Source: Candidatus Roizmanbacteria bacterium GW2011_GWA2_37_7
Lineage (GTDB): Bacteria; Patescibacteriota; Microgenomatia; UBA1406; GWC2-37-13
DNA: 32,864 bases
NCBI GenBank assembly: GCA_000990445.1
Contig: LBTJ01000003.1
Span: forward strand, 1-32,864
Reading direction: 5' to 3'
Shown here: piece after piece, positions 1,803 to 20,582 of the stretch
How the letters are laid out: each line of letters begins with the position of its first letter
How positions within the stretch are numbered: position 1 is the stretch's first letter
Notes under the pieces: generated by a model
What the model saw: only the letters and a program-made list of their open reading frames with translations
What the model was told of the DNA's origin: nothing
Database searches by the model: none
Translations under genes and position numbers: made by a program

Positions 1803-3065
1803 TTAATTAAGTCCTCCTGAAAACGCCTTAGATAATACCGATTGTCGAATAATCTCAGATTTTCTAACACCAATTTCCAAAGCTTTTGTTAACTGCTCCA
1901 TAGTGGTTAATTGGCTTTTAATATACTCAACAATTTTTACCTGATTCTCTAGTGAAGTATATGGGACTGGAATCAATCTTAAATTTCCCAAAGGAATAAA
2001 TTGTTGGGTTGTACCTCTAACCATATTGTTTGCCTTTAGTATTTGGTATAGACTGTTTGATTTTAGCCAATATAATAAATACTCAGAGTTTAAATATTTA
2101 GGATTGACCTTGAACAACCCAACATTTTTAATACTGAACTGACTCTCTTCCTCAATGAGGACAGCATTACCGATAGTTCCTATCATTCCATATAAAATAT
2201 CGCCTTTAGCTACCGATGATCTTTTTGATATTTCTTTGTGATCTTCTTTAGAGATATACTGAATCTTTGACATATCAAGCCCGTTTAAAGTCAAGTTTTT
2301 AGAAGTAACTAGTGGAATTCCCGAATCAACATACCTTGGTGTGTCATGTGTTCCATCTCTTACTGATTGACATATCTCATAAGCACTTACCCAGAGCATA
2401 TTATTAGGCAAGCCTGGGAGCTTTATACTTATGTTTGGCATTCTACGTGCAATATCTTGACCAGTTTTATGTATATGAAATTCTTTGATTTCAGCACTAA
2501 GCCTATCAATATTAACTTTGTTTTCGGCTCCTTTTTTTAAATAAGCATTACCAATAAATGAAAATTGAAATAGCCGAGATTTGCTTTCAGTTTCTTTTAG
2601 TACTGTTTTTGTAGTATCTAAGATGGAAAACAACTCTTCTAACTTGTCCACAATTTGCTTTTGCTCATCCAGTTCCGGAACTCCAACAATTTTTGCATAA
2701 GCATCGTTCCTGTTCAGGCCTGGGATAGCAGTGGATCGATCTAGTTGTCCTAACCGTAAATGTCCAAGTAAATGGTATGCAAATTTGAGATTAATATTCT
2801 CTGGAGGAATTACATAATAGGTAGTATCTATCGGCCAACAAGGCTCTGTAGATAAATGAACAGCACCAACAGTACCTTTACGGCCTACTATTAGGCATGG
2901 AACTTTAACTAGGCTTTCTGAATGTTTCCCGACAATTCCATTTGAACCATAAACATTTACGTCTCCTGAACTAGTTCTTTTGTGTTTGGGCATTCCTTTT
3001 CCGTACTCTAGCGTTAAAACTTCTCCTAGTTTTTTAGTTTGCCAATGTTTTGGAATAGTTGTCAT
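1803..3065 (-). CDS. hsdS: Type I restriction enzyme specificity subunit HsdS
   Basis: The 420-residue protein has the usual two target-recognition domains, each followed by a helical spacer. TRD1 starts at IPKHWQTKKLGEVL and ends near LDEQKQIVDKLEELF. TRD2 starts near GLPNNMLWVSAYEIC and ends near LENQVKIVEYIKSQL. Length and architecture are normal for the family. The track start at 3080 uses TTG; ATG at 3065 (MTTIPKHWQ) is preferred and lies 4 bases after the hsdR stop, so hsdR and hsdS form one transcript. HsdS normally docks two HsdM methylases onto DNA, but no hsdM is in this window. Confidence 0.92.
   Translation of the reverse strand: MTTIPKHWQTKKLGEVLTLEYGKGMPKHKRTSSGDVNVYGSNGIVGKHSESLVKVPCLIVGRKGTVGAVHLSTEPCWPIDTTYYVIPPENINLKFAYHLLGHLRLGQLDRSTAIPGLNRNDAYAKIVGVPELDEQKQIVDKLEELFSILDTTKTVLKETESKSRLFQFSFIGNAYLKKGAENKVNIDRLSAEIKEFHIHKTGQDIARRMPNISIKLPGLPNNMLWVSAYEICQSVRDGTHDTPRYVDSGIPLVTSKNLTLNGLDMSKIQYISKEDHKEISKRSSVAKGDILYGMIGTIGNAVLIEEESQFSIKNVGLFKVNPKYLNSEYLLYWLKSNSLYQILKANNMVRGTTQQFIPLGNLRLIPVPYTSLENQVKIVEYIKSQLTTMEQLTKALEIGVRKSEIIRQSVLSKAFSGGLN
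1812..1818 (-). promoter_or_regulatory. Strong Shine-Dalgarno deciding the start of the HEPN/DUF3800 gene
   Basis: AGGAGGA lies inside the last codons of hsdS (coding Ser-Gly-Gly) and 10 bases before ATG 1801. It is one of very few clear Shine-Dalgarno sequences in the window, and it argues against the upstream start in the ORF track. Confidence 0.7.
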
Positions 3066-3069
3066 GTTT

Positions 3070-5799
3070 TTATTCAGCAAACAAATATTGATTTAATTCT
3101 TGTACTATTGGCTGTAATTGAGTTCCAAATACTTGTTGAGCTTTTATATATCCCCCTCTATCACGCATTTTAGGGTCGAGTTGAAAAACTTCGACCAGAT
3201 CATCTTCCCTGCCCGCTGAAGCTTCAGCGGAGGTGGGAAATCCACCCTTCTCAGCCACGAAATCCTTAATCATTGTTAACCACTCCATCTGCTCTTCTGA
3301 AAAATCCATGCCTCCTTTATGTTGATCTTTAAGCCAAATTTGATATCGTTCCTCAACAGTTGTTGGGAATGGCTCAAGATCGTGCGATTTATCTACTGCA
3401 AATCTGACCAAAGAAACGATGTTTGTAAGCACCCTGTCAGGCTTGGCGTTTCTCACCTTGGCTTTATATAAATTTCGGTACGCATTCCAAAGCGTTTCAT
3501 TTTGAAAACTTACGTTCGCGTGTGTAAGTTGCTCTGCTAGATCCTGTATTTGCTGATAGGTAACTACCCGCTTTTTGTATGGCTTGCTGAAAAGAATTTG
3601 CAAAGCAGTTATTTCATCTTGATGTTTTTTGATGTAATCTTCAAAACTTTCAACCACCTGTGATGGCTGGACTGGCTCGGGCTTTCCTCCGGATAATGGT
3701 TGGTCGGGGGATAAATCGATAACAATTTCATTTTTCCTCTTAATATCTAAAAGCAACTGCCTAAAGTCTGGATTATCAAAATACTTGAGGACTTCTTTTT
3801 GTTGTACTTCTTTGGCTGGTATATCTGGATCAACCACATCGAGAATTTCGTTTGCTACTTGTTTGAGAGTAACTCCACCTGTCTTTTTTTCAATCTGCTG
3901 TTTGTCCTCTGGGGTTAAAGACCTCTCAAACTTAGACAATCTCCCTGCCAAAGAAACCAAACCGTCTTCATCAATTGTTCCCAGAGCCGCTTTTTCTAGT
4001 AAATCTTTAAATGATACAAATGGTTTTCTCTCTAGTGTGCGTGAGTCTGTTTTTACATTTTCGGTAACCCCAACCGCATCAAAAATAACAAAGCGGTTTT
4101 TATACTCTGCATCAGGTGTTACTGATTTTAAATCTGTTGTTGATATCGTCCTTGTTCCTCTCCCTTTCATTTGCTCAAAATAAACTCTGGATTTCACATC
4201 TCTCATAAATATTAAACACTCAAGGGGTTTTATATCTGTACCTGTTGAAATCATATCTACTGTCACTGCAATTCTGGGGAAGTACGAGTTTCGAAAACTT
4301 TGGATCAGATCATCAGTTTTCTCTCCTGATCGATAAGTAATCTTTTTACAAAACTCATTACCCTTACCAAATACTTCTCTGATAATATGCACTATCTCTT
4401 CGGCATGGTTGTCATCCTTAGCAAAGACTAATGTTTTTGGAATTGTTTCTCGATCAGGGAAAATATCAACCAACCAGTTTTTATATACTTTAATGACTGT
4501 GCGTATCTGGTCTGGAGTAACCACACTTCGGTCTAGCTCGTCTGGTTTGTAAGTTAAATCCTCCTCCAGCTCTTCCCAGCGCAACTGTCTAGTTTGTCTA
4601 TCCCTTACATCTATGGTTGTACCAGCCTTGATGGTATTACCTTCTTCTCCGATCTGCGTTTTAATGCGATAAACATCGTAACCCACATTGATTCCATCAG
4701 CTACCGCCCTTTCGTGGGGATATTCCATTACCAAATTTGAGTTGAAAAAACCAATTGTCTGTTTTGCTGGGGTAGCAGTAAGACCAATTAAGTGTGCATC
4801 AAAATATTCAAGTACCTGTCGCCATAGATTGTAAATCGACCTGTGACATTCGTCAGTGATGATGAAATCAAAATCCTCAATGGGCACATTTCCATTGTAT
4901 TCGACTACAACCTCACTATCGTAAGCAAAATCTGGCGGTTTTTGGAACAATGATTCCTCCTCCAACTCATCATCAATATCTTTTTTCCCAGAGAGAATTG
5001 AGTACATTCTTTGAATAGTGCCTACACAAACCTTGCTGACGGGGTCAATATTTGGACTTTGTAAGTGCTGTACGTTATAAAGCTCGGTAAATTTTCGGCC
5101 ATCATGAGGAACTACATATTGTTGAAACTCTTTGACAGCTTGTCTAGCTAGATTTCCTCGATCAACCAAAAACAACACTCTCTTTGCTTTGGCATATTTA
5201 AGAAGTCTATATACAAATGTGACTGCCGTGTAAGTCTTTCCGCTTCCAGTTGCCATCTGGATTAGAGCTCTTGGTTTATCCTTAGCAAAGGATTTCTCTA
5301 AATTTATAATAGCTTCAACCTGACATTCCCTTAATCCTTTTGTTTCTAATTCAGGAAGATTTTTTAGTCTAGCTCTGAGGGTCTTTTTATCTGAAACCCA
5401 TTCCTGTAATGTTTCAGGCCTATGAAATGCAAATAATCTGCGAGATCTTACATCCGGATCCCTCTCATCTCTGAAAAATGTTTCAGTGCCAGTGCTTTCG
5501 TAAGCAAAGGGCAAGTTATCATCAATTGTTGGAATATTTTCAGAAGCTCCAGTCATATATTTTCCTGACTGATCTGCTACACCGCTTAAAGTTGTTCCTC
5601 CTGGTTTAGCTTCAATAACTCCCACTGCTTTGCGAGCGACAAAAAGCATATAATCTGCCTCGCCATTATTTGTTGGAAACTCGCGAACAGCAACTCCCAG
5701 TGAAGCACCAAGGTTTAGTTGGCGCCTGTTTTGGACTACCCAACCCGCCTTAGTAAGTAATTCATCAATTTTTTTTCTAGCTTCATCTTCTGGTGTCAT
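3070..5799 (-). CDS. hsdR: Type I restriction enzyme endonuclease/translocase HsdR (EcoEI-like)
   Basis: The 909-residue product cuts and translocates DNA as part of a type I complex. The N-terminal nuclease core is seen as GEADYMLF then VGVIEAKPGG (residues about 46-66, D..ExK). The SF2 helicase follows: Walker A ATGSGKT near 181, DECH near 313, LTATPAKQ, and KGRGTRT near 543. The C-terminal EcoEI_R_C type domain begins near VESFEDYIKKHQDE (about 711). ATG at 5799 (MTPEDEARKK) is preferred over the track TTG three codons upstream. A 10-codon palindromic insert (PTSAEASAGR) lies near residue 855. It is first in the hsdR-hsdS-effector transcript. Confidence 0.93.
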   Translation of the reverse strand: MTPEDEARKKIDELLTKAGWVVQNRRQLNLGASLGVAVREFPTNNGEADYMLFVARKAVGVIEAKPGGTTLSGVADQSGKYMTGASENIPTIDDNLPFAYESTGTETFFRDERDPDVRSRRLFAFHRPETLQEWVSDKKTLRARLKNLPELETKGLRECQVEAIINLEKSFAKDKPRALIQMATGSGKTYTAVTFVYRLLKYAKAKRVLFLVDRGNLARQAVKEFQQYVVPHDGRKFTELYNVQHLQSPNIDPVSKVCVGTIQRMYSILSGKKDIDDELEEESLFQKPPDFAYDSEVVVEYNGNVPIEDFDFIITDECHRSIYNLWRQVLEYFDAHLIGLTATPAKQTIGFFNSNLVMEYPHERAVADGINVGYDVYRIKTQIGEEGNTIKAGTTIDVRDRQTRQLRWEELEEDLTYKPDELDRSVVTPDQIRTVIKVYKNWLVDIFPDRETIPKTLVFAKDDNHAEEIVHIIREVFGKGNEFCKKITYRSGEKTDDLIQSFRNSYFPRIAVTVDMISTGTDIKPLECLIFMRDVKSRVYFEQMKGRGTRTISTTDLKSVTPDAEYKNRFVIFDAVGVTENVKTDSRTLERKPFVSFKDLLEKAALGTIDEDGLVSLAGRLSKFERSLTPEDKQQIEKKTGGVTLKQVANEILDVVDPDIPAKEVQQKEVLKYFDNPDFRQLLLDIKRKNEIVIDLSPDQPLSGGKPEPVQPSQVVESFEDYIKKHQDEITALQILFSKPYKKRVVTYQQIQDLAEQLTHANVSFQNETLWNAYRNLYKAKVRNAKPDRVLTNIVSLVRFAVDKSHDLEPFPTTVEERYQIWLKDQHKGGMDFSEEQMEWLTMIKDFVAEKGGFPTSAEASAGREDDLVEVFQLDPKMRDRGGYIKAQQVFGTQLQPIVQELNQYLFAE
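3208..3237. repeat. In-frame palindromic insert within hsdR
   Basis: A 30-bp segment contains the perfect 18-bp palindrome CCGCTGAAGCTTCAGCGG, flanked by CCTGCC and AGGTGGG. It is exactly 10 codons and reads PTSAEASAGR on the hsdR strand. It falls in a weakly conserved part of the EcoEI_R_C-like domain and is more GC-rich than its surroundings. This resembles the in-frame Rickettsia palindromic elements in principle; no sequence relationship is claimed. Confidence 0.6.
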
Positions 5800-5906
5800 A
5801 TAAATCAATCTTTTCTAGAACAATTTTTGGTATATCTGCGAAATAGTATTCGTATTTCTAACTTTGAAAAAAACAAGGTAAAGTATTTTTACTCATCAAT
5901 GCCACT

Positions 5907-13668: not shown

Positions 13669-13968
13669 TTATTTTAATAGTTGCAATACACTATTATATC
13701 CCCCGCATCCATTCTTGAGCCATAATGCTACACGAGTAACAGTGGTGGTTGAGGTTTTCATTTTCTTTGCGATTTCTATATATGACAGATTCGTGGTGTA
13801 AAGTAATTGCGCTATTGCGATTCTGCGACCAAACTCTTCAAGTTCTTTGGGTGTCAGCAAATCACGAAGTAAATTCAGTGCTTCTTGTATTGTTTGAACT
13901 TTAGTAATGGCTTCTGCAAGAAGTTTCTCGTTTACTGAATGGGAAATATAGTTTTTCTGGTTTGTCAT
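13669..13968 (-). CDS. TrpR/YerC-family transcriptional repressor, candidate histidine regulator
   Basis: The 99-residue protein fits the TrpR/YerC family: AITKVQTIQEALNLLRDLLTPKELEEFGRRIAIAQLL, then a helix-turn-helix LSYIEIAKKMKTSTTTVTRVALWL. Length is typical. It is transcribed divergently from the his operon across a 51-base gap containing both predicted promoters and a TrpR-like palindrome. From memory, TrpR-like proteins (named HisR/YerC) have been linked by comparative genomics to histidine genes in Gram-positive bacteria; the context here agrees. The predicted promoter puts +1 on the start codon, so the mRNA would be leaderless. The ligand is inferred to be histidine. Confidence 0.88.
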   Translation of the reverse strand: MTNQKNYISHSVNEKLLAEAITKVQTIQEALNLLRDLLTPKELEEFGRRIAIAQLLYTTNLSYIEIAKKMKTSTTTVTRVALWLKNGCGGYNSVLQLLK

Positions 13969-13974
13969 GAAACA

Positions 13975-13980
13975 ATTATA
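13975..13980 (-). promoter_or_regulatory. Extended -10 promoter of the TrpR-like repressor gene
   Basis: On the minus strand TGTTATAAT (TGN plus TATAAT) ends 6 bases before ATG 13968, so the predicted +1 is the A of the start codon. No good -35 box is seen, as expected for an extended -10 promoter. Confidence 0.55.
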
Positions 13981-13984
13981 ACAC

Positions 13985-14013
13985 TTGACAAATCAATATC
14001 ATCATGTTAACAT
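13985..14013 (+). promoter_or_regulatory. Predicted promoter of the histidine operon
   Basis: A perfect -35 TTGACA (13985-13990), a 17-base spacer and TAACAT (14008-14013, 4 of 6 matches) place +1 at about 14020, the A of the leader-peptide ATG. The -10 box is covered by the CATGTTAACATG palindrome. The -35 box lies only 5 bases from the -10 of the opposing repressor promoter. Confidence 0.6.
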
Positions 14014-14014
14014 G
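14003..14014. promoter_or_regulatory. Candidate TrpR-family operator
   Basis: CATGTTAACATG is a perfect 12-bp palindrome over the his -10 box. The E. coli TrpR operator core is CTAGTTAACTAG, sharing the centre GTTAAC and the half-site spacing. It sits at -35 to -46 from the predicted repressor-gene start, so one site could repress his and control the repressor gene. No second copy was noticed in the window. Confidence 0.6.
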
Positions 14015-14019
14015 CTAAT

Positions 14020-14082
14020 ATGAGTCAACAATCATTGAATACAACTGTTTCTATTCATCATCTCCTCGCATCTGCGGGGTAA
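14020..14082 (+). CDS. hisL: his operon leader peptide with tandem histidines
   Basis: A 20-codon frame reads MSQQSLNTTVSIHHLLASAG and stops with TAA at 14080. Two adjacent His codons (CAT CAT, 14056-14061) lie just upstream of the pause hairpin of the attenuator. The predicted transcript starts on this ATG, so it would be translated as a leaderless mRNA; no Shine-Dalgarno could exist. Two His codons are few compared with the seven of E. coli hisL, but the geometry is right: a ribosome stalled there leaves the 14074-14080 strand free, and one at the stop covers it. Too short for the ORF track. Confidence 0.65.
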   Translation: MSQQSLNTTVSIHHLLASAG

Positions 14083-14109: not shown

Positions 14110-14132
14110 ACCCCGCGAAGGCGGGGTTTTTT
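14110..14132 (+). terminator. Rho-independent attenuator terminator of the his operon
   Basis: ACCCCGC-GAAG-GCGGGGT is a perfect 7-bp stem with a 4-base loop, merging into a run of six T (14127-14132). It ends 32 bases before hisG, so it can only act on his leader transcripts. It is the strongest intrinsic terminator seen in the window. Confidence 0.85.
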
Positions 14133-14164: not shown

Positions 14165-15040
14165 ATGAAAACTGATTTTAACAATAACAATCTTAAACTA
14201 GCAATCCAAAAAAAAGGCAGACTCACAGACGATACGATTCTTTTTCTTGAAAATGCTGGTCTCATACTTGATACCGATGGTCAAAGGCTATTTGCCAAAT
14301 GCAGAAATTATCCTTTAGATATCGTATTTGTCCGTGATGACGATATTCCCGATTTTGTTGAAAACAGTACGGTCGATATCGGTATTGTGGGTGAAAATAT
14401 TCTGTACGAAAAAAATTCACGAGTACAAAAAATGTTATTGCTAAACTTTGGATATTGCCGACTGGTAATCGCAGTACAAAAAGATTTACCAATTTCAAAT
14501 ATCGGTGATCTCAACAAGTCTAAAATAACTACCTCGTATCCTCGAAGTGTTCAACGATTTTTTAATAGTCAAAACATCCCCGTTGATATTCTCGAAGTAA
14601 AAGGATCGGTCGAGCTCTCTCCTGCTCTGGGGATTTCTTCGGTTGTTGCCGATCTCACATCAACCGGCAGTACGCTTGCCATTTGCGATCTGAGGATCAT
14701 TGAAACAATTTTTGAATCACAGGCAGTACTTATTTCGCGAACAAATATCAACAATAGAAGGCAAGGGCTAATTGACAGCCTTATTTTCCGGTTTAAAGCG
14801 TTTCTAGAAGCACAAAAATACAAGTACGTCATGATAAATGCACCAGAAGAAAAACTCGAACAAATAACAAAAATCGTACATGGTCTCAAAAGTCCCACCG
14901 TTACTCCTCTTGCAATAAAGGGTTGGATATCTATCCAGACAGCAATACAAGAAAATGTATTTTGGGAAAAGATAGAAAAAATAAAAGAAATAGGCGCTTC
15001 GGGAATAATTGCATTACCAATTGAAAAATTAATTATATGA
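14165..15040 (+). CDS. hisG: ATP phosphoribosyltransferase, long form
   Basis: Catalyses the first step of histidine synthesis, joining PRPP and ATP. At 291 residues with a C-terminal domain (KSPTVTPLAIKGWISIQTAI, then GASGIIALPIEKLI) it is the long HisG type, which carries its own histidine-binding regulatory domain and needs no HisZ. The N-terminus LAIQKKGRLTDDTILFLENAG and the block VELSPALGISSVVADLTSTG are typical. There is no Shine-Dalgarno; a 13-codon frame starting right after the terminator (ATG 14134) overlaps the hisG start in another frame and might assist initiation. It overlaps hisD by ATGA. Confidence 0.96.
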   Translation: MKTDFNNNNLKLAIQKKGRLTDDTILFLENAGLILDTDGQRLFAKCRNYPLDIVFVRDDDIPDFVENSTVDIGIVGENILYEKNSRVQKMLLLNFGYCRLVIAVQKDLPISNIGDLNKSKITTSYPRSVQRFFNSQNIPVDILEVKGSVELSPALGISSVVADLTSTGSTLAICDLRIIETIFESQAVLISRTNINNRRQGLIDSLIFRFKAFLEAQKYKYVMINAPEEKLEQITKIVHGLKSPTVTPLAIKGWISIQTAIQENVFWEKIEKIKEIGASGIIALPIEKLII

Positions 15041-16344
15041 AAGTAATTAAACTTAAGGATTTATCTAAACAGGATTATTTAAGAATCATCAATCGATCAG
15101 CTGGTAGCAATGAATCAATTATGCCTTCAGTCCGAAAGATTATGGATGATGTGAAAAATAATGGCGATAAAACAATATTGGAGAAATATCAATCACGTTA
15201 CGGTGCTGATAACTATAAAACGATTCAGGTAACAAAAGAAGAAATTAAGGCAGCTTACAAATATGTGAATATACAAACAATCAAGGCATTAAAGCAAATG
15301 ATTAAAAATATTACTCTTGTACAAATATCCCAACTTCCTTCCAAAAAAGACGCTGTGGTTAGATCAGAAAAAGGGATTAGAGTTTGGAGAGAATGGCGAC
15401 CGATTCAAAAAGTCGGGCTATATATTCCAGGTGGAAAAGCTATATACCCTTCCTCTGTTCTGATGAGCGCGATTCCAGCTCAAATTGCCGGCTGTAAAGA
15501 AATCATCATGTGCTCCCCTCCAGGATCAGATGGACAAATACCAGCAGTAACGCTTGTAGCAGCTGACATGATTAGGTTGAAGAAAATATATAAAGTCGGT
15601 GGCGCTGAGGCAATTGCCGCCATGACTTACGGGACAAAAATAATCTCTAATGTTTATAAGATTTTCGGTGCCGGCAATTCTTATGTAACCGCTGCAAAAA
15701 TGTTAGCTCTTGAAAAAATAAGCATTGATATGCCAGCCGGTCCTTCTGAAGTATTTATAATCGCTGATGAAACAGCAAATCCTTCTTTTATTGCCGCTGA
15801 TTTATTGGCTGATGGTGAACACGGAGAAGATTCCGCCTGTGTATTGTTAACAACATCAGAAAAGATTGCTCGACTAACCATAATTGAAATCGAAAAGCAA
15901 TTAAAATCGCTAGAAACTCAAAATCGAACAAGAGAATCTTTAAGAAAATACGGACTGTTTGCCGTAGCGGATAATATGGATGAAATTACTAGATTCACAA
16001 ACGAATATGCACCAGAGCACTTAGAAATAATGATAAAAGATTCTGAACGGCTGGTTAAAGAAATCACTGATGCCGGTTCAGTATTTTTAGGCAATTGGAC
16101 ATCAAAATCAAGTGGTGATTATGCAACCGGTGCTAATCACGTCTTACCGACAGGTGGTATGGCAAAAATGTATTCACCACTTGGAGTTGATTCTTATGGC
16201 AAATGGATGCAGGTCCAAGAATGCACGGAGCAAGGATTAAAAAATATAAAGGATACCATCGAAACAATTGCCATAGTGGAAAAATTACCGGCTCACAAAC
16301 AATCAGTTTCCATACGATTTATTAATAATGAAAAAAACTTATGA
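15037..16344 (+). CDS. hisD: Histidinol dehydrogenase
   Basis: Oxidises histidinol to histidine in two NAD-dependent steps. The 435 residues show VGLYIPGGKAIYPSSVLM, MPAGPSEVFIIAD, the catalytic pair in YAPEHLEI, GDYATGANHVLPTGG and the C-terminal AHKQSVSIRF histidine. One zinc ligand position looks changed: where E. coli has LLSQAEHG (Gln259), this protein has LLADGEHG, an Asp in place of Gln, while the other ligands (His262, Asp360 and His419 equivalents) are kept. It overlaps both neighbours by 4 bases. Confidence 0.95.
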   Translation: MKVIKLKDLSKQDYLRIINRSAGSNESIMPSVRKIMDDVKNNGDKTILEKYQSRYGADNYKTIQVTKEEIKAAYKYVNIQTIKALKQMIKNITLVQISQLPSKKDAVVRSEKGIRVWREWRPIQKVGLYIPGGKAIYPSSVLMSAIPAQIAGCKEIIMCSPPGSDGQIPAVTLVAADMIRLKKIYKVGGAEAIAAMTYGTKIISNVYKIFGAGNSYVTAAKMLALEKISIDMPAGPSEVFIIADETANPSFIAADLLADGEHGEDSACVLLTTSEKIARLTIIEIEKQLKSLETQNRTRESLRKYGLFAVADNMDEITRFTNEYAPEHLEIMIKDSERLVKEITDAGSVFLGNWTSKSSGDYATGANHVLPTGGMAKMYSPLGVDSYGKWMQVQECTEQGLKNIKDTIETIAIVEKLPAHKQSVSIRFINNEKNL

Positions 16345-17429
16345 AAAATATTAATTTAACCAGATTTATAAGAAGTGATTTAGTTCAATATGAAGAATAT
16401 AAAGCAGTTCCGTCTGCTTATGATATTAGTGAGCAAAATCAAGTGGCGATTGAAAAGATTGACAAACTTGATGCCAACGAAAGTGTGTTTGGTCCAACAA
16501 AAAATCTTTATAAAGCGTTAGCAACATATAAAGGATATCGGTTTTATCCCGACCCTGAATATAAACGACTAAGACGAGCTATTGGTAAATATGTTGAAAT
16601 GCCTGACAACTTTATAGCAGTTGGCTCCGGTGGAGATGAACTAATTGATCTTTTATTAAGACTTATTCTTGAACCAAAAGATCAGGTAATAAACTCTCCA
16701 CCAACTTTTGGTAGTTATTCCACTTCTACATTTTTAAATCGTGGCGTTCTTATAAATATTCCCAGAATAAAGGATTTTTCGATAGAAATTGAAAAGATAC
16801 TTAATGCTATAAATGATAAAGTCAAATTGATTATCGTCTGTAATCCAAATAACCCTACTGGTAACTTGACCAATATCAATTATATTATTAAAATTCTTGA
16901 TACCCAAAAACTTGTATTAATTGATGAGGCGTATTTCGAATTCTCTGGTAAAACAGTTCTTCCACTTATTAAAAAGTATCCTAATCTTATTATTCTTCGC
17001 TCTTTTAGTAAATGGGCTGGGATTGCTGGATTAAGATTGGGATATCTTGTCGCTTCGCCTTATTTAATAAGACAAATAATGAAAATTAAATCCCCGTATA
17101 ATATAAATGTTGCGGCTGAACTGGCTGGATTAGTCGCTTTAGAAGACTACAAATACCAAGAAAGAATTATTAACGAAATAATAATAGAACGCAATACCCT
17201 TTATAAGGGTATAAAGAAAAATAGTAAACTGATAATTTATCCTTCTTGTGGCAACTTCTTATTTGTTCAATCTAATGAAACTTTATTCTTAAAACTTAAG
17301 AAGGGCTTTCAACAAAATAAAATTGCTGTTCGATATTACGATTCTGCTCTTACAGGAAAAGCACTTCGGATAACGGTAGGAACATCTACTCAAAATAATC
17401 GGGTTTTAGAAATTATTAACAACATATGA
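16341..17429 (+). CDS. hisC: Histidinol-phosphate aminotransferase
   Basis: A PLP-dependent fold-type I aminotransferase that makes histidinol phosphate. It shows DANESVFGP near the N-terminus, FYPDPEYKRLRRAI, VIVCNPNNPTG-type sequence (IIVCNPNNPTGN), LIDEAYFEFSG, and the PLP lysine in LRSFSKWAGIAGLRLGY. The 362-residue length is normal. The N-terminus carries about 35 extra residues before the conserved DANES. It overlaps hisD and the HAD gene by ATGA. Confidence 0.95.
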   Translation: MKNINLTRFIRSDLVQYEEYKAVPSAYDISEQNQVAIEKIDKLDANESVFGPTKNLYKALATYKGYRFYPDPEYKRLRRAIGKYVEMPDNFIAVGSGGDELIDLLLRLILEPKDQVINSPPTFGSYSTSTFLNRGVLINIPRIKDFSIEIEKILNAINDKVKLIIVCNPNNPTGNLTNINYIIKILDTQKLVLIDEAYFEFSGKTVLPLIKKYPNLIILRSFSKWAGIAGLRLGYLVASPYLIRQIMKIKSPYNINVAAELAGLVALEDYKYQERIINEIIIERNTLYKGIKKNSKLIIYPSCGNFLFVQSNETLFLKLKKGFQQNKIAVRYYDSALTGKALRITVGTSTQNNRVLEIINNI

Positions 17430-18067
17430 AAAACAATTTTGACGGAATAATTTTTGATATGGATGGAATACTTGTCGATGTTTCAAAATCCTATCGTGAA
17501 GCAATTAGGCTAACGGCTGGTTATTTTTTAAATCGCGAAGTTAAAAAAGACGAAGTAGATAGGATTAAAAATATCGTTGGGATGAATAATGATTGGGATG
17601 CAACATATAAGCTTATAAATAACCCTAGAATTTCCTACGAAAAAGTTAAATCATATTTTCAAAACCTTTATCTTGGAAATTCGAAAAGAAAAGGATTAAT
17701 TGATAACGAACCGACATTAATATCTAAAGCAATATTAAAGCAGCTGAAAGAGAAATATAAGAAACTGGCGATTGCTACCGGCAGACCAAGGAAAGAAGCT
17801 CAATACGTAATTGAAAAGAATAAATTGCAAGGATTATTTGATTGTATCGTTGTTATGGAAGATATTATCAATGGCAAACCGGCGCCCGATATGCTTTTTG
17901 CTGTAATTAAAAAAATGAAGTTTAGAAATACTGTTTATGTTGGCGATAGTCCAAATGACGTTATTTCTGCTAATAAAGCCGGAATACCGTGTATCTATGT
18001 AGGAACACAAAAAATAGGGTCAGAGAGATTCTCGTCTATATTACAAGTTATTAAATATTTACTATGA
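17426..18067 (+). CDS. HAD-family phosphatase, probable histidinol-phosphatase
   Basis: A 213-residue HAD subfamily IA hydrolase with motif I FDMDGILVD (nucleophile Asp and acid Asp), motif II in IATGRPRKEA, motif III lysine in NGKPAPD and motif IV VYVGDSPNDV. The DMDGILVDVSKSYREAI start resembles the TIGR01548 group of HAD proteins. No PHP-type or inositol-type histidinol-phosphatase is present, and the gene lies between hisC and hisB with 4-base overlaps, exactly where the phosphatase step is needed. The substrate is inferred from context. Confidence 0.85.
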   Translation: MKNNFDGIIFDMDGILVDVSKSYREAIRLTAGYFLNREVKKDEVDRIKNIVGMNNDWDATYKLINNPRISYEKVKSYFQNLYLGNSKRKGLIDNEPTLISKAILKQLKEKYKKLAIATGRPRKEAQYVIEKNKLQGLFDCIVVMEDIINGKPAPDMLFAVIKKMKFRNTVYVGDSPNDVISANKAGIPCIYVGTQKIGSERFSSILQVIKYLL

Positions 18068-18654
18068 AAAGAATTTCAAAAGTAGTTAGAAAAACTAATG
18101 AAACGGAAATTTCAATCAATCTCAATATTGATGGCAGTGGAAAAAGGAAAATCGAGACTCCTATCGGTTTCCTTAATCATATGTTATATCTATTTTCCAA
18201 ACATGGCTTATTTGATCTGGATATAAAAGCTAAAGGAGACACTTTTATTGATGATCACCACACTGTTGAAGATATTGGTATTGTTTTAGGTCAAGCATTT
18301 GCTGAAGCATTAAAAGATAAAAAGGGGATTAATCGGTATGGTTTTTTTATCCTTCCTATGGATGAAGCCTTGGCAAGCGTAGCAATTGATTTTGCAGGAC
18401 GATTTTCCTTCACTCAGCAGTGCGAATTTACGAGAGAAAAAGTTGGCGATCTAAGCACAGAGTTGGTATATGATTTTTGGGATGCATTTGCCCAGAATGC
18501 AAAAGCCAATGTATATATAAAGGTTGAAAATGGAAGAAACGATCACCACAAAATTGAAGCTATTTTCAAAGCAATGGCAAGAGCCTGTCGCATGGCCTGT
18601 GAACGGGATAAACGTAATCAATCAACAGTTCCATCAACAAAAGGAGTTCTATGA
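18064..18654 (+). CDS. hisB: Imidazoleglycerol-phosphate dehydratase
   Basis: The stand-alone dehydratase (196 residues) without the phosphatase domain of enteric HisB. Both manganese-binding DHH repeats are present (DDHHTVEDIG near 62 and NDHHKIEAIFKA near 159), with HML and HGLFDL in between. GFLNHML replaces the usual GFFDHML. The C-terminus PSTKGVL is the family hallmark. It is coupled to the upstream HAD gene and to hisH by ATGA overlaps. Confidence 0.97.
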   Translation: MKRISKVVRKTNETEISINLNIDGSGKRKIETPIGFLNHMLYLFSKHGLFDLDIKAKGDTFIDDHHTVEDIGIVLGQAFAEALKDKKGINRYGFFILPMDEALASVAIDFAGRFSFTQQCEFTREKVGDLSTELVYDFWDAFAQNAKANVYIKVENGRNDHHKIEAIFKAMARACRMACERDKRNQSTVPSTKGVL

Positions 18655-19265
18655 TAGCAATTATTGACTACGGCATAAACAATTTGGAAAGTGTAAGAAA
18701 TGCTTTAAACAAGCTTGTTGTCCAAACTGTGGTTACAAATAAACGTGAAATGATTCAAAAAGCAGATGCATTGATACTTCCGGGAGTCGGTGCTGCGGCG
18801 ATGGGAATGAAGAACTTGAAAGAACGCAAACTTGATAAAATTATCATAAACGACGTGAGAAAAGGAAAACCTATCCTAGGAATATGTCTTGGTATGCAAC
18901 TTCTTATGAGTAAAAGTGATGAAGGAGATATTAATTGTTTGGGTTTGATAAAAGGAAACGTAAAAAAATTGAGTAGCGAAATGAAAATTCCACAAATTGG
19001 ATGGAATCAGGTATGTTTAACCGACTCAGAGTCGGCACTATTTACAAATATTCCTGATAATAGTGATTTCTATTTTGTCCACAGTTATTATTGCAAACCT
19101 TATGATCAGAATATTGTCGCAGGAATAACAAAATATGGACAGGAATATTGTAGTATTCTAATAAAAAATAACATCGTCGGTGTTCAATTTCATTTGGAAA
19201 AAAGCGGAATGTCGGGATCTCTATTGCTGAAAAACATTATTAATTATTTTACGCAACTATGTTGA
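18651..19265 (+). CDS. hisH: Imidazole glycerol phosphate synthase glutaminase subunit
   Basis: A class I glutamine amidotransferase that supplies ammonia to HisF. The nucleophile elbow is GICLGMQLL (Cys about 77), and the His-Glu pair lies in [10 protein letters not shown]; Leu replaces the usual Pro but the triad is complete. The N-terminus [18 protein letters not shown] is typical. It overlaps hisF by 7 bases (ATGTTGA), consistent with stoichiometric production of the two subunits. Confidence 0.95.
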
Positions 19266-20014
19266 CAAAGCGAATCATCCCATGTCTTGATATGACAGAA
19301 GGGAAAGTGGTAAAGGGTATACAGTTTGTCGATTTTCGTGACGCCGGTGATCCTATTGTTCTGGCTAAAAAATATGATGAGCAAGGAGCAGACGAGCTCG
19401 TATTTTTGGATATTACAGCAACAGTTGATAACCGAGATATTCTCCTTGATGTAGTACAAAAAACTGCAAAAGAGGTTACTATCCCATTTACCGTGGGTGG
19501 TGGTATACGAAAAAAAGAAGATATGCAAAAAGTACTTCGAGCCGGCGCAGACAAAGTGGGCGTAAATACCGGAGGATTTAATAGACCAACTTTGATATCG
19601 GAATGCGCTCAATCATTTGGAAGCCAATGTGTGGTTCTCTCTCTTGATGCAAAACGCGTGAAAAATCAATGGAATGTGATTATAAATGGAGGAAGAACTG
19701 ACACGGGATTATCAGCTATAAAATGGGCACAACAAGCAGTAGCGCTTGGTGCCGGTGAAATACTCCTTACCAGCATAGATACCGATGGTATGAAGCAAGG
19801 ATTTAATATTGAGCTTACAAAAGAAGTTACGAATGTGGTTAACGTACCGGTGATTGCATCTGGAGGTGCGGGGAAACTACAAGATTTTAAAGATATATTT
19901 GTTGAAGGCAATGCCGATGCAGCACTTGCCGCTTCACTTTTCCACTTTGGAGAATGCACAATACAACAGGTCAAAGAGTATTTAAATGATAACAATATTT
20001 CTGTACGATTATGA
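19259..20014 (+). CDS. hisF: Imidazole glycerol phosphate synthase cyclase subunit
   Basis: A beta-alpha barrel that forms imidazole glycerol phosphate and AICAR. The catalytic aspartates are in IIPCLDM (Asp about 11) and [10 protein letters not shown] (Asp about 130); phosphate-binding loops are VGGGIR and IASGGAG. It is HisF and not HisA, by these motifs and the length (251). NTGGFNRP is an unusual form of the loop that is usually NTAAVxxP. No separate hisA lies in the operon or window. Confidence 0.96.
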
Positions 20015-20310
20015 AACTCACACCAGCAATAATCCAAGATATTAAAACTCAAGAAGTGTATATGCTCGGCTACATGAACGATGAAGCTCTTTCTCTTACT
20101 CAGAAAACAGGCTATGTATATTTTTGGAGCAGAAAAAGAAAAAAATTGTGGAAAAAGGGTGAAACATCGGGCAATACATTGTTGGTCAAACAAATATCTA
20201 CTGATTGTGATGATGACACGCTACTTGTTCACGTGGAGCTCAATGGAAATACAGTTTGTCACACAGGAAAAAAATCGTGTTTTTATAAAAATATAACCAG
20301 AAAATTATGA
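20011..20310 (+). CDS. hisI: Phosphoribosyl-AMP cyclohydrolase
   Basis: The 99-residue enzyme opens the adenine ring of PR-AMP. It has the metal-binding STDCDDDTLLVHV stretch, WKKGETSGN and CHTGKKSCF, all standard. It is a separate polypeptide, not fused to HisE as in E. coli, but the two genes overlap by ATGA. The conserved FVSRSR-type sequence appears as YFWSRKRKKLW. Confidence 0.96.
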   Translation: MKLTPAIIQDIKTQEVYMLGYMNDEALSLTQKTGYVYFWSRKRKKLWKKGETSGNTLLVKQISTDCDDDTLLVHVELNGNTVCHTGKKSCFYKNITRKL

Positions 20311-20582
20311 CACTAGAAGAACTCTATACCATTATTGAAACAAGAATAGAATCGAGGAAAAAAAATTCGTATATTTCTCGATTGTTTGAAAGCGGAACTG
20401 ATCAGATTCTTAAAAAAGTTGGAGAAGAGGCAATAGAAGTCGTCATAGCAGGGAAAAATAAAAATAGACAAGAAATTATTTCTGAATCTGCCGACCTGTT
20501 ATTTCACGTACTTATTTTACTATGTGAGAAAAAAATACAGCTTAAAGATATCTATGATGAGCTTGAGGCAAGAAGAAAATAA
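20307..20582 (+). CDS. hisE: Phosphoribosyl-ATP pyrophosphatase
   Basis: A 91-residue all-helical MazG-like enzyme that hydrolyses PR-ATP. It has SYISRLFESGTDQILKKVGEEAIEVVIAGK followed by ESADLLFHVLILL, the metal-binding helices of the family. It is the last gene of the operon; no clear terminator follows, and it converges on a small membrane-protein gene that ends one base downstream. Confidence 0.95.
   Translation: MTLEELYTIIETRIESRKKNSYISRLFESGTDQILKKVGEEAIEVVIAGKNKNRQEIISESADLLFHVLILLCEKKIQLKDIYDELEARRK

Follow-up and report, generated by a model that had tools for sequence, protein, structure and literature searches.

A conserved putative operator next to a HisR-like repressor gene and a predicted His-codon attenuator point to double control of histidine genes in Candidatus Roizmanbacteria

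Does a short palindrome lying between a TrpR-family repressor gene and a histidine operon serve as an operator for both, and to which signal would it answer? The question is raised by a 32,864-nt stretch of DNA from Candidatus Roizmanbacteria bacterium GW2011_GWA2_37_7 (contig LBTJ01000003.1, assembly GCA_000990445.1, positions 1-32,864; hereafter the window). A gene for a 99-aa HisR-like protein of the TrpR family (hisR, 13669-13968, minus strand) and the his operon hisG-D-C-HAD-B-H-F-I-E (14165-20582, plus strand, from profile matches) are divergent, and the core palindrome CATGTTAACATG lies between them at 14003-14014. Elsewhere in the window, on the basis of sequence only, genes at 1803-5808 resemble those for the specificity and helicase subunits of a type I restriction-modification system.

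The two promoters were located by a consensus scan. On the plus strand, the his -35 (TTGACA, 13985-13990) is separated by a 17-bp spacer from the -10 (TAACAT with extended TG, 14008-14013), and on the minus strand hisR has a -10 at 13975-13980 (TATAAT) and a -35 at 13997-14002 (ATGATA). As the initial annotation had stated, the palindrome is over the his -10; it begins 35 nt and ends 46 nt ahead of the first codon of hisR (position 13968). Its proposal of one operator between divergent promoters was also supported. The site contains the his -10 and lies against the hisR -35, whose hexamer is overlapped by the 20-bp operator described below. The start codons of hisR (13968) and of the his leader peptide (14020) approximately coincide with the predicted transcription starts, which suggests that both mRNAs are leaderless.

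Palindromy alone is no evidence for an operator and was rejected as such, because the window contains 19 perfect 12-bp palindromes. There is a single exact copy of CATGTTAACATG in the 962,621-base genome, and allowing one mismatch revealed no further operator site. With up to three allowed, eight places matched versus 15 for a control pattern, which corresponds to background. The significance of the operator comes instead from its conservation, which is decisive. A scan of named genomes returned 80 loci, mostly from Roizmanbacteria and other Patescibacteria, with some from Coatesbacteria, Actinomycetota, and SAR86. The loci of Patescibacteria and Coatesbacteria served to train a motif with leave-one-out scoring; its consensus is TTAnYATGTTAACAYRnTAA, part of which coincides with the promoter -10 sequence. 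In 39 of 40 loci the motif site outscored every other position of the locus. Nearly all accepted hisR sites scored about 15-28 (null mean near -3). In the window, the 20-bp operator TCATCATGTTAACATGCTAA (13999-14018), with CATGTTAACATG as its core, ranked first with a score of 24.5, the runner-up elsewhere reaching 5.5. The conserved unit therefore exceeds the palindrome first annotated: besides the 20 bp, its extensions reach 13995-14022, the flanking columns TRTR and YAYA being conserved in 39 loci, so that the motif with its flanks spans about 28 bp with a half-site every 8 bp. A weaker second copy is found at 14011-14022, offset by exactly 8 bp.

Some forty related genomes share the operator, and related sites accompany the homologues in Actinomycetota and SAR86. 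In a co-occurrence test on 281 genomes, motif sites with at most one mismatch were present in 26 of the 48 genomes where the window repressor has a strong homologue versus 7 of the 233 others (p = 1.8e-17), a reversed control pattern being nearly absent. In three loci (L051, L055, L006), hisR is beside another neighbour, yet the operator and the attenuator stay at the target promoter. Together with the conservation and the co-occurrence, these loci answer the refuting condition named in the initial annotation, a palindrome that is not conserved where gene order is, and the site was not refuted by it.

The annotation of a TrpR/YerC-family gene beside the site was supported, the window protein matching PF01371 with 68.2 bits (cut-off 27). 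It scored 41.7 bits with the YerC model TIGR02531, 0.5 bit short of the cut-off of 42.2, and 37.3 bits with the TrpR model TIGR01321 (cut-off 67.25). The YerC model was matched by all 19 aligned members of its clade (best 5.4e-20), and a profile of the clade matched the solved HisR-like structures 3g1c, 3frw, and 3kor best. In a tree of 84 proteins, which are short, give few columns and leave the deep forks poorly resolved, the window protein fell within a clade centred on Roizmanbacteria (support 84), while TrpR formed a branch of its own (support 100). The three Firmicutes structures and other YerC-like proteins of Patescibacteria also fell outside this clade, with the same weakness of the deep forks. 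From these scores and this tree, the predicted protein appears to be a member of the TrpR family nearer to YerC/HisR than to TrpR.

Related genomes of Patescibacteria (L209-L228) encode a second, TrpR-like paralogue with the recognition helix VATVTRG, whose own promoters carried TACTAGTATACTAGTA or a variant in the 20 cases examined. We note that this paralogue represents a second TrpR-family repressor, probably self-regulating. Its sites are of the CTAGTATACTAG type, where scores of the HisR-like motif do not exceed 10.0. The TrpR operator sequence TGTAcTnGTnnACnAgTACA was not found at the window site, whose arms are CATG and TTA/TAA, and the shared GTTAAC centre does not identify a TrpR site, since the published TrpR consensus has the centre GTnnAC (PMC9413887). 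The palindrome-plus-half-site layout recognised in the initial annotation was recovered, the 8-bp period being that reported for TrpR half-sites (PMC9413887), whereas its assignment to the TrpR type by sequence was not. These comparisons indicate that the window operator has the layout of the TrpR family without the sequence of a TrpR site.

Downstream of the operator, a leader peptide is predicted at 14020-14082 on the plus strand (MSQQSLNTTVSIHHLLASAG, then stop), with two His codons at 14056-14061; related leaders have HH or HHH. On the same strand, segments 1 (CCTCGC) and 2 (GCGGGG) of a putative attenuator lie inside the leader codons (14062-14079), and segments 3 and 4 form an intrinsic terminator, ACCCCGCGAAGGCGGGGT followed by a T run (14110-14132); the RNA has a z of -3.6 in the window. 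In 30 loci, the window among them, the operator is followed by a complete attenuator, with adjacent His codons preceding segment 1, a frequency that is partly built in as this set was chosen by requiring such codons. The 1:2, 2:3, and 3:4 hairpins can form in all 30 (medians -11.6, -17.1, and -13.1 kcal/mol), and the antiterminator and terminator folds are mutually exclusive. In L084, where the stem reads CCTCCC/GGGAGG rather than CCCCGC/GCGGGG, all three pairings persist. At several loci (L075, L079, L080, L087, L094), the operator has no attenuator behind it. No match to the His_leader family RF00514 or to other Rfam families was obtained at gathering or relaxed threshold. The stacking of an operator on an attenuator, as first annotated, was recovered; with 30 loci, it is no oddity of the window genome.

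The genes downstream of the operator include hisG-hisD operons, an amino-acid ABC transporter, a nucleoside hydrolase, and an M20 peptidase, to which are added histidine ammonia-lyase (hutH, above its model cut-off) and, in Coatesbacteria, hisC; in Actinomycetota a related site adjoins hisA. Nucleoside hydrolase and phosphorylase genes are both among the targets. In two genomes of the window's genus (G003 and G006), the repressor, the operator, and the His-codon attenuator are kept before other genes, and no hisF or hisA match above cut-off was found.

Several observations concern individual target genes. Genes of the hutH family are located behind a histidine-starvation-type attenuator in L040, L042-L045, and L055, which is odd for an enzyme of catabolism; the genes after hutH in L043 encode a PALP enzyme, a protein weakly resembling HisRS, and an M20 peptidase. 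In L082 (6308-7744) and L068, the gene under the His-codon attenuator encodes a GNAT domain joined to a histidine-racemase-like domain (NF052224, 74 bits, which is below the cut-off). The his operon of the window is without hisA, and the only other PF00977 match of its genome (C79, 4259-4829) is broken into two parts that do not share a reading frame. Two 98%-complete relatives (G004, G005) have hisF and lack a second full PF00977 gene, and both PF00977 genes are present in G011 and G039.

In another family of Patescibacteria (f9; L175-L194, genomes G143, G242, G198, G258, and G152), we observed sites of the same motif, with 11 and 19 copies in the two richest genomes (G143 and G242, respectively) and no control matches. 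They lie upstream of the genes for AlaRS, LysRS, ThrRS, HisS, MiaA/MiaB, TruB, GatC, UppS, and others, and near the repressor-family gene itself, often in arrays with an 8-bp shift.

The site is most probably the operator of the adjacent HisR-like repressor, which would repress both hisR and the his operon in a histidine-dependent manner, in addition to ribosome-mediated attenuation. When histidine is ample, repressor dimers, with histidine as the presumed co-repressor, would bind the half-sites at their 8-bp period and cover the his -10 and the hisR -35 region, turning both genes off. Transcripts escaping repression would then meet the attenuator. A ribosome that stalls on the two His codons of the leader would mask segment 1, letting 2:3 pair and allowing read-through, and one reaching the stop codon beside segment 2 would leave 3:4 free to terminate. 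The recurrence of histidine-related targets (hisG, hutH, the transporter, the racemase-like gene, hisC) counts for histidine as the signal, and the many histidine-unrelated genes carrying the motif in f9 count against it. Also weighing against the reading as a whole are the near miss of the YerC cut-off, the overlap of part of the motif with the promoter -10, the loci with an operator but no attenuator, and the odd placement of hutH. These f9 sites, like the nucleoside hydrolase and phosphorylase targets, would fit better if the same repressor and operator responded to another ligand (for example histidinol, a purine/PRPP-type signal, or charged tRNA status), only the attenuator sensing histidine. 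We consider this rather unlikely, given that the characterised HisR of R. gnavus requires L-histidine for DNA binding (PMC9413887) and that hisG, hisA, hisC, hutH, and transporter targets recur.

The two other possibilities are both far less probable. The palindrome could reflect two overlapping AT-rich promoters and no regulator, as -10 elements (TAACAT/TATCAT) are inside it and perfect palindromes are common in the window. This is very hard to reconcile with the conservation of the TTA/TAA arms beyond the hexamers and of the 8-bp extensions, with the first rank of the motif in 39 of 40 loci, and with its co-occurrence with the repressor. A true TrpR operator answering tryptophan would account for the GTTAAC centre and the PF01371 domain, and was rejected as equally improbable because of the low TrpR model score, the separate TrpR branch of the tree, and the CTAG-type sites of the distinct TrpR-like paralogues; the leaders, moreover, carry His codons.

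Compared with known systems, a HisR-like repressor probably acting with an attenuator resembles both the HisR (YerC) of Firmicutes and others (Ashniev 2022, PMC9413887) and the trp system of E. coli. With the former it shares the PF01371 fold family, a palindromic operator of about 20 bp, found here too at the his genes and hisR, presumed control of its own gene alongside the his genes, and in some cases a hutH neighbour. The Firmicutes operator is cacTTTAnnnnnnTAAAgtg, which is absent from the window site and was found upstream of another Patescibacteria paralogue (L026), and the Firmicutes proteins are on a separate branch, subject to the poorly resolved deep forks. That survey did not include Patescibacteria and sought attenuators only where HisR was absent, whereas the window system stacks the two; our literature search on histidine control in Patescibacteria found nothing. 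E. coli TrpR/trpL likewise combines a TrpR-family repressor over the promoter with leader-peptide attenuation, and its operator has the same GTTAAC centre and 8-bp half-site spacing, but the arms are CTAG instead of CATG and TTA/TAA, the leader codons are Trp instead of His, and the repressor gene is not divergent from its target as in the window. The enterobacterial his leader (RF00514) also has a His-codon leader peptide, an antiterminator, and a terminator upstream of hisG; the window type differs in having only two or three His codons and three simple hairpins, with both first segments within the leader coding part and no Rfam match.

These bacteria with tiny genomes thus probably place their histidine genes under two controls, the E. 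coli trp design of repressor plus attenuator being used here for histidine in place of tryptophan. More tentatively, the TrpR/HisR-like group and its TTAnCATGTTAACATGnTAA operator may be an old system of Patescibacteria that in f9 came to regulate genes of translation and the envelope globally; if so, its regulon would include aminoacyl-tRNA synthetases, tRNA modification, GatC, and undecaprenyl diphosphate synthase, with further sites around its own gene. The paralogous TrpR-like and HisR-like repressors, with their different operators, offer a natural pair for studying DNA choice in the TrpR family. In the ultrasmall Patescibacteria, few of which are cultivable and whose gene regulation is little known, the finding supplies a testable repressor, operator, and attenuator with defined targets in dozens of genomes.
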